Shown: positions 26,310-30,475 of the stretch, one piece after another
Numbering within the stretch: the first letter of the stretch is position 1
Layout of the letters: each line of letters starts with the position of its first letter
Origin: Tessaracoccus lacteus
GTDB taxonomy: Bacteria; Actinomycetota; Actinomycetes; Propionibacteriales; Propionibacteriaceae
Reading direction: 5' to 3'
NCBI RefSeq assembly: GCF_029917005.1
Contig: NZ_CP123967.1
Span: 372,001-436,000 of the forward strand
DNA: 64,000 nt
The notes under the pieces: model-generated
Told to the model about the DNA's origin: nothing
What the model saw: the letters and a program-made list of their open reading frames with translations, nothing else
Database searches by the model: none
Position numbers and translations under genes: made by a program

Positions 26310-27737
26310 ATGTCTCTGGTGGCGGGCATCGATTCGTCGACGCAGTCGTGCAAGGTCATCGTCGTCGACCCGGCGACCGGTGCGATCGTGGCCTCGGGCC
26401 GCGCGTCGCACCCCGAGGGCACCGAGGTAGCCCCCGCCGCGTGGTGGGAGGCTCTGCAGGAGGCCGCGGGTCAGGTGGACCTGGGGGACGTCGTCGCGGC
26501 TGCCGTCGCAGGGCAGCAGCACGGAATGGTGCTGCTCGATGCCGACGGGGAGGTCATCCGCGACGCGCTGCTGTGGAACGACACCCGCTCCGCGCAGGCC
26601 GCCGTCGACCTCATCGCGGACTTCGGGGGCGGCGACGCAGGCGCCGGCGCCGCGTGGTGGGCCGAGGCCGTCGGCTCCGTGCCCGTCGCCTCGTACACGG
26701 TCACCAAGCTGCGCTGGGTCGCCGACCATGAGCCCGCCAATGCCGCCCGCATCGCCGCGGTCGTGCTTCCGCACGACTGGCTGACGTGGAAGCTGCTCGG
26801 CACCGGCCGCATCGAGGACCTTGTCACCGACCGGTCCGACGCGTCGGGCACCGGCTACTTCGACCCCGTCTCCGGCGATTACCGCCGCGACATCCTGGCC
26901 GCCGCGCTGCGAATCGACGAGGCTGCCGCCGGACGGATCGTCCTGCCGCGCGTCGCCGCGCCCGGCGAGGTCGTCGGCTCAGGGACGCTCGCCGGGCAGT
27001 CGGTGCAGCTCGGCGCCGGGATGGGCGACAACGCCGGCTCCGCGCTCGGGATGGGCCTGACCGCGGGCGACGTCGTGGTGTCGATCGGCACCTCCGGCGT
27101 CGTGTGCGGCGTCTCCGACACCCCCAGCCGCGACGCCTCGGGGCTCGTCTCCGGGTTCGCCGACGCCACCGGCCGCTTCCTGCCGCTGGTCTGCACGCTC
27201 AACGGGGCCCGCGTCCTCGACGCGACCGCGCGCCTGCTCGGCGTCGACCACTCCGCGCTCTCCGACCTGGCCCTGGCCGCGGCTCCCGGCGCGGACGGCC
27301 TCGTCTTCGTGCCCTACATGGAGGGGGAGCGGACGCCCAATCTGCCGGACGCGACCGCCTCCATCCACGGCGCCACGCTGACGAGCATGACGCGGGAGAA
27401 CCTCGCCCGCGCCGCCGTCGAGGGCATCGTGTGCTCGCTCGTCGACGCTCTCGGGTGCCTCACCGATGCGGGCGGCCAGGCCGGGCGGGTGTTGCTGACC
27501 GGCGGCGCCGCCGCATCGCCGGCGGTGCAGGCCGCTTCCGCGACGCTGTTCCCGGTCCCCGTCGCGATGCCCGCCGCCGGCGAGTACGTCGCGCTGGGCG
27601 CGGCGCGCCAGGCCGCCTGGGCGGCGTCGGGGGAGAAGGAGGCCCCCGTCTGGGCGCTCCCCGTCGAGGAGCTGCCTGTCGCCGAGCATGCGACGGAGGT
27701 CGTCGCGGCGTACCGCGCGGTGCGCCCCTGGAGCTGA
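26310..27737 (+). CDS. xylB: Xylulokinase-like FGGY sugar kinase
   Basis: 475 residues. It has both FGGY-kinase ATPase lobes: [13 protein letters not shown] (phosphate 1), [33 protein letters not shown] (phosphate 2) and [12 protein letters not shown] (adenosine). The QQHGMV and WNDTRS segments are typical of xylulokinase (D-xylulose + ATP). GTGAGGAG precedes the ATG. No xylose isomerase or transporter is next to it, so the actual sugar could differ. Confidence 0.88.
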
Positions 27738-27758: not shown

Positions 27759-27852
27759 GACGCCAACGAAACTCCCCAGACGCCAACGATATGCACCGAC
27801 GCCAACGATATTCGCGCGAATACCGTTGGCGTCGGTGCATATCGTTGGCGCC
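27759..27852. repeat. Intergenic palindromic element, group C copy 2
   Basis: GACGCCAACG occurs three times in the same direction at 27759, 27779 and 27799 (exactly 20 bases apart), then twice inverted (CGTTGGCGTC at 27824, CGTTGGCGCC at 27843, 19 apart). Bases 27781-27807 and 27824-27850 form a perfect 27-base stem, with a 16-base loop that itself contains ATTCGCGCGAAT. It sits between two converging genes and could double as a terminator. The design matches copy 1 at 2226-2327. Nothing else is seen in this gap (27738-27910). Confidence 0.72.
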
Positions 27853-27910
27853 TGGGATGGCGCGACACTGCCCCAGGAAGAAGGTGGCAGGGACCGCCCT
27901 TCGCCGAGCG

Positions 27911-28513
27911 TCAGCGCTCGGGGTGGGTCAGGGCGTGGTCGCCCCAGCGCTCGATGCGCCAGCCGTCCTCGGTGCTGCCGTTCAACACGATCCACTTGGT
28001 GTTCTCGAGCGGCATGGCGATCTCGTGGCTGATGGTGGGGTCCTGCGTGAGGGCCCAGACCCGCAGTGCCGCGCCGTGGCTGACGAGCGCGACGTGCTCG
28101 TCTCCCGCCTGTTCCATCGCCGCGATCGCGTTGGTGAACCGGGTGATGAACTGGCGGGCGGTCTCGCCGCCGTCCAGGCCGACGTCGAGGTTCGTGGGCG
28201 ACCACGACATCAGCATGTCGACGTAGGGGCCCCAGTCGGTGTTCATCTCCTCGACGCCGGCCGCGATCTCCTGGATGCCCTCCACGATCACGGCGTCGAG
28301 GCCGCGGGCAGCGGCGAGCGGGGCCGCTGTCTGTTGGGCGCGGGTCAGGGTGGAGCAGTAGATCGCGTCGATCCGCTCGTGCGAGATAGCGTCGACGAGC
28401 GCCTTCGCCTGCGCGTGCCCGGTCTCGTTGAGGGGCAGGCCGGGGTAGGCCGTGTCGAGCTGGCGGCGTACGTTGGCGTCGGTCTGGCCGTGGCGGATCA
28501 GGATCAGGCGCAT
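27911..28513 (-). CDS. Histidine phosphatase (phosphoglycerate-mutase-like)
   Basis: 200 residues. RHG motif LILIRHGQTDANVRRQLD, CSTLTRAQQTA, and the second catalytic His in VSHGAALRVWAL mark a two-histidine phosphatase of the branch 1 type. The acidic residue in VEGIQEIAAGVEE fits a phosphatase. It follows the mshA-mshB fusion gene by 33 bases; in mycobacteria a gpm1-like gene also lies near mshA, so the neighbourhood is old. Substrate unknown. Confidence 0.87.
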   Translation of the reverse strand: MRLILIRHGQTDANVRRQLDTAYPGLPLNETGHAQAKALVDAISHERIDAIYCSTLTRAQQTAAPLAAARGLDAVIVEGIQEIAAGVEEMNTDWGPYVDMLMSWSPTNLDVGLDGGETARQFITRFTNAIAAMEQAGDEHVALVSHGAALRVWALTQDPTISHEIAMPLENTKWIVLNGSTEDGWRIERWGDHALTHPER

Positions 28514-28546: not shown

Positions 28547-30475
28547 TCAGGGCAGGTGGGGGACCTGTCCGACCAGGCCGGTCGACGTGACGATGGGTTC
28601 GGTCTGGCCCCCGGAGTGGGTGATCGTCGCGCCGTCGTCGTGCACCGTCAGCTGAGTGCGGTGGTTCCGCAGCGCGGACGCGACGCGTGGAAGGTAGCCC
28701 GTCAGGTCGAACCAGCGGGTCGCCTTGTCGCGGTCGGTGGTGAGAGCGGCGAAGGGGAGCCCGAGCTCGTCGGCGGCGGCCTTCGCCACGTCGTGCATCC
28801 TCACGTGGTCGGGGTGTCCGTAGCCTCCATCGTCGTCGTAGCTGACGACCAGGTCGGCGCCGCAGTGCCTCAGGTAGGCCACCGCGTCGGCGACCTCCTC
28901 CGCCTCGTCGGAGCGGCAGAGCGACGCATCGTCGGAGTCGGGGGCGGGGCCCGCGACTCCGGGACGGAGCCAGATCATGCCGGAGTCGAGGTAGCGCCGT
29001 GGCTCGTCGGTGGCGCGGGCGGGCGGGATGCCGAGGTAGGCGTGGCCCCGCACGCCGAGCGAGGTCAGCGCGCCGGCCAGCTCGGCCTCGCGGCGGTATT
29101 CGAGCGCCGGTGTGCCCGCCAGGTGCGAGAGCGGGCCGGGGACCACCTCGCCGAACTCGCCGCGGGTCGCCGTCAGCACCGAGACGTCGAACCCGGCATC
29201 GACCAGGTGGGCGATCAGGGCTCCCGAGGCGAGGGTCTCGTCGTCGGGGTGGGCGTGCAGGAAGGCGATGTGTCTGATCGGACCGGATGCGATCGCGCGC
29301 CGGTAGGCGTCGCGGGTGCGCCCGGCGACGTGCGCCCAGGACATCTGTTCCGCCCGCTGACGCCCCGTCGCACCGATCCGGAGGCGCAGCTCGTCGTCGC
29401 GGAGGAGGGGGAGCAGCGCGTCGGCCCAGTCCTGCGGATCGTGCGACGGGACCAGGATTCCGGTGTGGGTGTTGCAGATGGCCTCGGTCAGGCCGCCCGC
29501 GGCGGCAGCCAGGACCGGGACGCCCGACGAGGATGCCTCGAGCGCGACCAGGCCGAAGGTCTCCGAGTGCGACGGGACCAGCATCACCGAGGAATGCCGC
29601 ATGAGGCGCGCGAGAGACTCGCGGTCCTGGCCGGGCAGGAAGATCACGCGGTCGTCGAGCGCGAGGTCGGTGACGAGACGGTGAATCTCCGCCTCGTAGT
29701 CGGCGAAATCGGCGGACACCTCGCCGACGACCACGAGGTCGGGGCGCTCCGCCTCTGGGAGTGCGGCCAGCGTGCGGATGGCCAGGTCGGGGGCCTTGAG
29801 CGGCTGGAGGCGCGCCGCGTAGAGCAGGTATCCCGGGCGCACGGACGGGGCCGGCGTCCATGCTTCGTCCGGGGCGGCGGGGCGGAAGAGGTCCGTGTCG
29901 ACGCCCGGCCAGACGACGCTCACGCGCGCCGGGTCCGCCTGACAGCGGCCGATGACCACCGCGGCCTCGTAGCGTGACACGGCGATGATCAGGTCGGACT
30001 GCGTCGCGCAGGTGACCTCGCCGGTGAGGCGGGCGGGCGACTCCGGAGGCTCCCCGTCGCGCAGCGGGGAGTTGGGGTGCGCCGCGACCGAGTGGAACGT
30101 CATGACGTGCGGGATGCCTGCCGCTCGCGCGAGCGGCAGCGCCGCGACGCCGGACATCCAGTGGTGCGAGTGCACGACGTCGAACGCGTCGAGCGAGCCG
30201 AGGTTGTCGCGGAACTCGTCGATGTACTGGTCGATCTCGCTCTTGGGTAGCGGCCGCGCCGGGCCTGCGTCGATGTGGTGCACGACCAGCCCGTCGTCGA
30301 GCGTCGCCGTGTCGGGCTGCTCGGGACGCGACCGCCGCGTGAAGAACTCGACGTCGTCGCCTCCCGCCTGCAGTGCCCGCGCGAGCGCGCGGATCAGCAC
30401 GTTCATGCCGCCGGCGTCGGCGGTACCCGGCCGTTCGGCCGGCGAGGTGTGCAACGAGATGAAGGCGACGCGCAT
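28547..30475 (-). CDS. mshA-mshB: MshA-MshB fusion: mycothiol glycosyltransferase and deacetylase in one chain
   Basis: 642 residues. Residues 1 to about 398 are a GT4 glycosyltransferase with the MshA hallmarks: GGMNVLIRALARALQ, VHSHHWMSGV, SVVWPGVDTDLFRPA and PSHSETFGLVALEASSSG. Residues from about 401 are a PIG-L zinc deacetylase with the MshB motifs FLHAHPDDETLASG and GGYGHPDHVRMHDV. MshA joins GlcNAc to inositol-3-phosphate; after dephosphorylation MshB removes the acetyl group to give GlcN-inositol. The two are separate genes in mycobacteria and Streptomyces. No stop or frameshift separates them and the linker is only a few residues. The ATG at 30475 is chosen because the next 22 upstream codons read as noise. 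Confidence 0.92.
   Translation of the reverse strand: MRVAFISLHTSPAERPGTADAGGMNVLIRALARALQAGGDDVEFFTRRSRPEQPDTATLDDGLVVHHIDAGPARPLPKSEIDQYIDEFRDNLGSLDAFDVVHSHHWMSGVAALPLARAAGIPHVMTFHSVAAHPNSPLRDGEPPESPARLTGEVTCATQSDLIIAVSRYEAAVVIGRCQADPARVSVVWPGVDTDLFRPAAPDEAWTPAPSVRPGYLLYAARLQPLKAPDLAIRTLAALPEAERPDLVVVGEVSADFADYEAEIHRLVTDLALDDRVIFLPGQDRESLARLMRHSSVMLVPSHSETFGLVALEASSSGVPVLAAAAGGLTEAICNTHTGILVPSHDPQDWADALLPLLRDDELRLRIGATGRQRAEQMSWAHVAGRTRDAYRRAIASGPIRHIAFLHAHPDDETLASGALIAHLVDAGFDVSVLTATRGEFGEVVPGPLSHLAGTPALEYRREAELAGALTSLGVRGHAYLGIPPARATDEPRRYLDSGMIWLRPGVAGPAPDSDDASLCRSDEAEEVADAVAYLRHCGADLVVSYDDDGGYGHPDHVRMHDVAKAAADELGLPFAALTTDRDKATRWFDLTGYLPRVASALRNHRTQLTVHDDGATITHSGGQTEPIVTSTGLVGQVPHLP

Follow-up and report, generated by a model that had tools for sequence, protein, structure and literature searches.

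The array at positions 27759-27852 of the window (the whole stretch of 64,000 nucleotides analysed here, G000:C1:372001-436000, from the 3.05 Mb genome G000 of Tessaracoccus lacteus) raises the question of whether a mirrored row of short motifs serves as a hairpin or as a series of sites on duplex DNA. The original prediction had three forward units at exact 20-base steps; the units are present (Table 1), but the two steps measure 20 and 19 bp. Its two inverted copies 19 bases apart were recovered at 27824 and 27843, the second with one mismatch, and its 27-base perfect stem was confirmed by RNA folding (-71.6 and -80.6 kcal/mol for the two strands, z about -13), with 0 of 200 shuffles equally good. 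The innermost opposed CGCC...GGCG motifs span 32 bp. A single CGCCAAC pair at 20 bp (at most one mismatch; 0.12 expected per window) is weak evidence alone, because 12 of 100 shuffles have one. The 27-bp stem together with at least 29 copies in the genome excludes chance for this array.

The array lies between two convergent genes. The carbohydrate kinase gene ends 21 bp ahead of unit 1, and the histidine phosphatase gene has its 3' end towards the array. The only Rfam 15 matches above the gathering score in the window are two tRNAs, with none at the array. Further along, a 642-aa protein encoded at 28547-30475 (minus strand) matches MshA over residues 2-396 and MshB over residues 405-570, both below the NCBIfam cut-offs, and is possibly a fusion of two mycothiol steps.

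Table 1. Coordinates of the arrays and adjoining genes in the window.
Feature	Position	Strand	Remarks
Unit 1, GACGCCAACG	27759..27768	+	extra left-arm unit, outside the hairpin
Unit 2, GACGCCAACG	27779..27788	+	step of 20 bp from unit 1
Unit 3, GACGCCAACG	27798..27807	+	step of 19 bp from unit 2; left half of core palindrome
Unit 4, inverted GACGCCAACG	27824..27833	-	right half of core palindrome
Unit 5, inverted, CGTTGGCGCC	27843..27852	-	one mismatch; step of 19 bp from unit 4
Inverted repeat, 82 bp	27775..27856		41-nt arms, 95% complementary, no loop; contains family C core
FGGY carbohydrate kinase gene	26310..27737	+	best model XylB, 380 bits, just below cut-off of 380.25
Histidine phosphatase superfamily gene, phosphoglycerate-mutase-like	27911..28513	-	no model score reaches its cut-off
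Family A array, 3+3 units GAYGCYACC	2226, 2245, 2264; inverted 2281, 2300, 2319		exact 19-bp steps

The array belongs to a set of elements, here called family C, that BLAST places at 29 or more separate sites in G000, a lower bound given that scoring covered 40 of the 51 candidates. Several of the copies are incomplete. In the usual layout one arm has three units and the opposite arm two, and the spacers are specific to each unit. Because these unit-specific spacers are common to the copies, we regard the copies as descended from one element. The letters CGCCAA are nearly invariant in an alignment of 39 rows from three genomes, an invariance that is partly by construction, the copies having been chosen by motif pattern. 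One region of the chromosome (G000:C1:2650731-2653058) holds three family C copies in 2.4 kb, near MerR-type, DnaJ, GrpE and Hsp70 genes.

A second array at 2226-2327 had been taken for a companion copy sharing the same core. The array is real, but it has a core of its own (GATGCCACCGCCATGGCGGTGGCATC) and every step is 19 bp, and the two loci represent two families, C and A, rather than two copies of one. It is located downstream of an IS3-type transposase gene (minus strand) and ahead of a TetR-like gene. The family A unit is CGCCACCC and its core CACATGCCACCGCCATGGCGGTGGCATGTG, with slight variation. In the 27 arrays read in G000, 76 of 82 steps are exactly 19 bp, and the core gap is 53 or 72 in 21 of 26 arrays. 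The paired pattern of family A (at most one mismatch) gives 84 matches in G000 and 106 in G033, with 2 in the reversed control of each, and 10 matches or fewer in every other member of the genus. Between the window's family A array and the IS3-type transposase gene sits an inverted repeat (2374-2444) with 31-nt arms, AAGAATGC and GCATTCTT, that are 84% complementary.

The suggestion that plan and spacing are kept over exact letters holds well beyond these two families. Certain actinobacteria carry dozens of short mirrored arrays in which a small motif returns at intervals of 19 or 20 bases. Counts of the paired CGCCAAC pattern are 358 in genome G003, a member of the same genus, with 1 in the reversed control, and 25 in G000, with 0 in its control. 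The G003 sample comprised 34 stretches, 20 of them evenly spaced and 14 others, nine of which were picked for known arrays; it yielded 30 arrays with 229 exact motifs. Here 132 of 170 steps are exactly 20 bp and 14 more are 40 or 60, and the core gap of the 29 two-armed arrays is 94 bp in 20, 114, 154 or 174 in six, and 115, 52 and -215 in the remaining three. An Agrococcus MAG (G222), which we take to come from a different order than the Tessaracoccus-type genus, has a paired TGGCGCC at 20 bp with 99 matches against 0 in the control, and of the 131 steps that fall on the ten most frequent values listed, 109 are exactly 20. In 13 stretches read from this MAG the arms are mirrored where both exist, but there are also single arms, and the core gap is variable. 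The outcome proposed as a refutation, spacing that is not conserved between copies, did not appear in these scans. As G000 and G033 are close sisters, G033 is no independent replicate of G000; G003 and G222 are more distant.

The distribution is patchy, even inside one genus. Among 198 genomes of the family, clear CGCCAAC-type arrays were found in this genus only (G003, G000, G015, G033 and G061), with a few pairs in G029 and no more than three matching pairs in any of the remaining genomes. The array letters in G061 are identical to those in Tessaracoccus massiliensis SIT6 records. A lag scan of intergenic 6-mers (100 kb sampled per genome) gives a peak at lag 20 for G003 and at lag 19 for both G000 and G033, the G033 peak coming partly from an unrelated CTCAGGG-type motif, and has no 19/20 peak in G001, G031, G004 and G005. 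A scan of genome contigs gave at least 120 stretches, of which 14 were read among the matches listed: two stretches (L142, L197) are unrelated repeats and one (L171) is a plain tandem. Stretch L120, considered as a possible half array, has its core. L203, from the Propionibacteriaceae MAG S7A_St_31, has CGCCAAC units in a mirrored array whose centre is short and different. A further 19-bp tandem motif family in G033 (L277-L296), near CTCAGGG/CCGAGC, is unlike families A and C.

In family A, in G003 and at the MAG loci L180, L185 and L192 the span of the innermost opposed motifs, counted by eye, is 22 bp; the 32 bp of family C exceeds it by about one helical turn. Going outwards, the first step is 19 bp in family A, family C and the G003 core, and a step of 19 or 20 bp is slightly under two helical turns.

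Comparison of G000 with G033 separates the motif from its spacers. In 11 shared copies (three of 14 candidate sites were excluded as not aligning as intact copies) substitutions affect 12 of 520 motif positions (2.3%), 51 of 451 spacer positions (11.3%) and 250 of 2553 flank positions (9.8%), and as copies and positions were located via the motif, its conservation is partly built in. The difference between motif and spacer is marked (Fisher p 1.1e-8), and that between spacer and flank is not significant (p 0.35; p 0.19 if the motifs are those called on G033). Calling motifs on G033 in place of G000 gives the same picture, and adding the three poorly aligned sites gives 3.1, 12.3 and 10.7% for motif, spacer and flank. 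The 962 bp of element compared contain 2 small indels and the 2218 bp of intergenic DNA close by contain 41, which makes small indels about ninefold rarer in the element (p 7e-5); the larger changes counted within elements are unit-sized only. Motif and step, and in G003 and family A the core spacing, are conserved, and the spacers drift freely, at about the rate of flanking DNA. To judge from these alignments, array motif and spacing are under purifying selection, which supports the earlier argument for function or a shared generating mechanism.

Individual copies nevertheless come and go. For 25 of the 29 G000 sites, one flank or both could be found in the G033 stretches taken. Among six aligned sites, the element is absent from G033 at 192318, 231164, 1429233 and 2525224, and partly kept, as after deletion, at 683498 and 267288; at the site of the window array G033 has about 950 bp of other DNA. 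With several sites empty or reduced to remnants in G033, no single array need be essential.

Whether the arms fold can be asked of the mirrored spacers. In G003 the complementarity of 75 pairs of outer spacers is 0.399 against 0.385 when shuffled (p 0.17), and in family A that of 45 pairs is not above shuffles (p 0.90). Arms are equal in only 3 of 29 G003 and 6 of 25 family A arrays, one and two arrays respectively having been dropped as lacking two ordered arms, and the lengths of the two arms show no correlation in G003 (rho 0.25, p 0.19) or in family A (rho -0.12, p 0.56). The family C spacer stems are 75.5% paired against 73.8% when shuffled (70 of 500 shuffles as high), their covariation score is reached by 9 of 500 shuffles, a weak signal, and 27 of 39 copies leave the column pair 16:67 open. 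In its core palindrome family C shows little variation and no covariation beyond shuffles. By contrast with the outer stems, the inner palindrome of G003 covaries (163 against 84 +/- 25, 0 of 300 shuffles; 20 cores with gap 94); the outer parts of the same palindrome do not. All these shuffle tests leave relatedness between copies in place. As to whether stems change together between copies, the check proposed at the outset, they do so in the inner palindrome of G003 and not in the outer stems, apart from the weak signal in family C. We conclude from these patterns that the array arms are rows of putative sites on duplex DNA, and that the core may fold or bind as a dyad.

Placement was scored with our own codon-usage gene caller, by which 29 of 29 family C and 30 of 30 G003 arrays are intergenic. 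Family C arrays lie in 10 convergent, 14 co-directional and 5 divergent gaps; the 27 family A arrays of G000 lie in 14 convergent, 12 co-directional and 0 divergent gaps, with 1 called inside a gene, and many of them begin less than 20 bp from a stop codon. Convergent gaps are enriched in family A (p 0.01) and G003 (p 0.005), not in family C (p 0.34), and divergent gaps are depleted in family A (p 1e-4) and G003 (p 6e-4). Across the three sets, 36 of 41 co-directional arrays are closer to the upstream stop than to the next start (p 8e-7). The arrays have the 3'-end, non-divergent intergenic placement of REPs, the depletion of divergent gaps being not significant in family C (p 0.11).

This placement is the classical REP placement, and therefore shows no termination role by itself. 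GTAG and CGTC REPs have 3'-end and convergent positions, the convergent ones being mostly less than 20 bp from the 3' ends of flanking ORFs in the two species shown in the passages cited (PMC3733652). The arrays also resemble REP/BIME elements in being dispersed, intergenic, palindromic, present in many copies and patchy between species, after gene ends and between convergent or co-directional genes, and given this placement they may have a REP-like origin. An untagged actinobacterial REP would have precedent, since untagged REP-like families are mentioned in M. tuberculosis and others in a paper whose main text does not use the word Actinobacteria (PMC3733652). In such an explanation a transcript hairpin stabilises or ends mRNA and the repetition of units is a by-product. 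The very strong hairpin of the window array and the covarying inner palindrome of G003 agree with it, and we still consider it unlikely: a T tract (5 T in 8 nt) occurs at 0 of 58 family C flanks, the window array locus has no intrinsic terminator match, the outer spacers are uncomplementary between unequal arms, the family C pair 16:67 is mostly open, and a hairpin needs no constant 19/20-bp step. The arrays differ from REPs as phased rows of motifs with drifting spacers around a core. A short GTAG/CGTC-tagged hairpin was rejected from structure, as stems measure 8-9 bp in CGTC and 5-13 bp in GTAG REPs in the sections cited (PMC3733652), and the arms in the window are long and composite, in a loopless repeat of 82 bp. 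Mobilisation by a RAYT was discarded as well, the Y1 transposase (PF01797) being absent from all 39 genus genomes and matched in 5 of 14 control genomes.

Protein-bound arrays might instead serve chromosome organisation (anchoring, nucleoid-occlusion-type or condensin-loading) and not transcription, a reading that is unlikely though worth keeping in mind. With the G000 origin position taken from parS, the origin half contains 26 of the 29 arrays of family C (p 1.5e-5), and for family A the figure is 22 of 27 (p 0.0015), as raw counts uncorrected for intergenic space. In the even G003 sample, leaving out one array at the edge of L106, arrays occupy 10 of 75 gaps within 0.81 Mb of parS against 2 of 45 beyond, which is not significant (p 0.21). 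The tight 3'-end placement would be unexpected of pure anchors, the families are patchy within the genus, and no extra ParB paralogue accompanies them. Units following the replichore strand were ruled out, both strands occurring together in arrays. The repeats of Tn7-type ends are transposase sites, and mobile MITE-like elements with such repeats could spread without host benefit. The unit-specific spacers of family C, pointing to one ancestral element, and the presence/absence differences between G000 and G033 would fit; we judge this quite unlikely, because no target duplication or clean insertion boundary was seen by eye at the six aligned sites, two of which keep partial elements, collections of phages and plasmids yielded no match (of 11 stretches from the scan of viral contigs, L266, the one read, is a simple repeat), and neutral copies should not retain motif and step while spacers drift. 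The single copy in G020 looks as if moved by recombination: its adjoining ATPase is 98.8% identical to that of G000 and another neighbour 83%, which points to transfer of the copy by that route. Tandem duplication or slippage alone, with each unit copying its neighbour and unit length kept in consequence, is extremely improbable. Adjacent G003 spacers are alike at 0.54 against 0.41 when shuffled, and 11 of 132 are identical, as copying predicts; however, adjacent spacers differ at nearly half of positions with the step still exact, small indels are depleted as described above, and the core gap is mostly fixed.

In the reading we prefer, the arrays are probably helically phased putative sites for a sequence-specific double-strand DNA-binding protein, nucleated on the palindromic core. 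The covariation of the G003 inner palindrome counts against a protein array, since it also fits a cruciform or RNA hairpin. In the proposed mechanism the core would be bound by a symmetric protein pair, further subunits would be added outwards in steps of 19 or 20 bp with opposite orientation on the two sides, and the number of units would set the length of a protein filament. At gene 3' ends such a filament would act as punctuation: it would stop read-through from one transcription unit into the next, the two being often convergent, or keep the supercoils of neighbouring units apart. Protein binding, polymerisation and filament action at gene 3' ends are what we infer from motif, spacing and placement; the punctuation role, even given protein binding, is put forward tentatively.

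Several known systems offer partial parallels. Plasmid iterons are direct repeats of about 19-22 bp bound by Rep monomers, with inverted copies bound by dimers, and the present arrays resemble them in repeat length and in having inverted copies of the same motif. They differ in forming dozens of chromosomal arrays at gene 3' ends, and a Rep_3 iteron replicon was rejected, the initiator (PF01051) being found in 0 of 39 genus genomes and in 2 of 14 controls. In parC/ParR and parS/ParB, a protein filament is built on tandem sites (of 20 bp in pSK41 parC), as we propose for the arrays. The array sequence is unlike the parS sites found, and sites of Noc/ParB type were dismissed as no extra ParB paralogue is present in G000, G033 or G003; ParB_N has one match each in G000, G033, G003, G015, G061 and G007, two in G029 and one to five in the other genomes. 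Integron attC boxes, with the consensus RYYYAAC/GTTRRRY, were judged by eye to be unlike CGCCAAC. A cognate gene beside the arrays was sought among 320 flanking proteins compared across genomes, which gave orthologous neighbours and one recurring family, of ABC transporter ATPases (Pfam, 6 of 6 checked) and not of DNA-binding proteins. Arrays of the TAACTGA heptamer in Beggiatoaceae and Cyanobacteria are likewise genome-wide intergenic sets of a short motif, whose reader is not known, and in the passages cited they are direct repeats, in the BOGUAY genome mostly just ahead of start codons (PMC4679880); the present arrays differ in being mirrored, with spacers of variable bases, and in lying mostly after stop codons. 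Among the papers listed by the literature searches, none describes these mirrored phased arrays, judged by title and abstract.

These mirrored 19/20-bp arrays with a palindromic core could perhaps be a new chromosomal landmark in Actinomycetes, carrying at gene 3' ends a putative protein filament of defined length, in which reader and motif diverge between lineages and the geometry is kept, with two such systems (A and C) in one genome. If they do carry filaments of a DNA-binding protein, they would give GC-rich bacteria either a boundary between transcription units that is defined by sequence or a mark for chromosome organisation. The evolutionary comparison, in which motif and geometry are set apart from the letters of the spacers, opens the claim to direct testing and offers a distinction of protein arrays from hairpin REPs by sequence only. 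A unit-sized difference is seen at copy 105465 of G000 (L049), which has one 19-bp unit fewer in both arms than its G033 counterpart (L275); the difference lies at the same mirrored place in each arm, as if both had been edited by one event.
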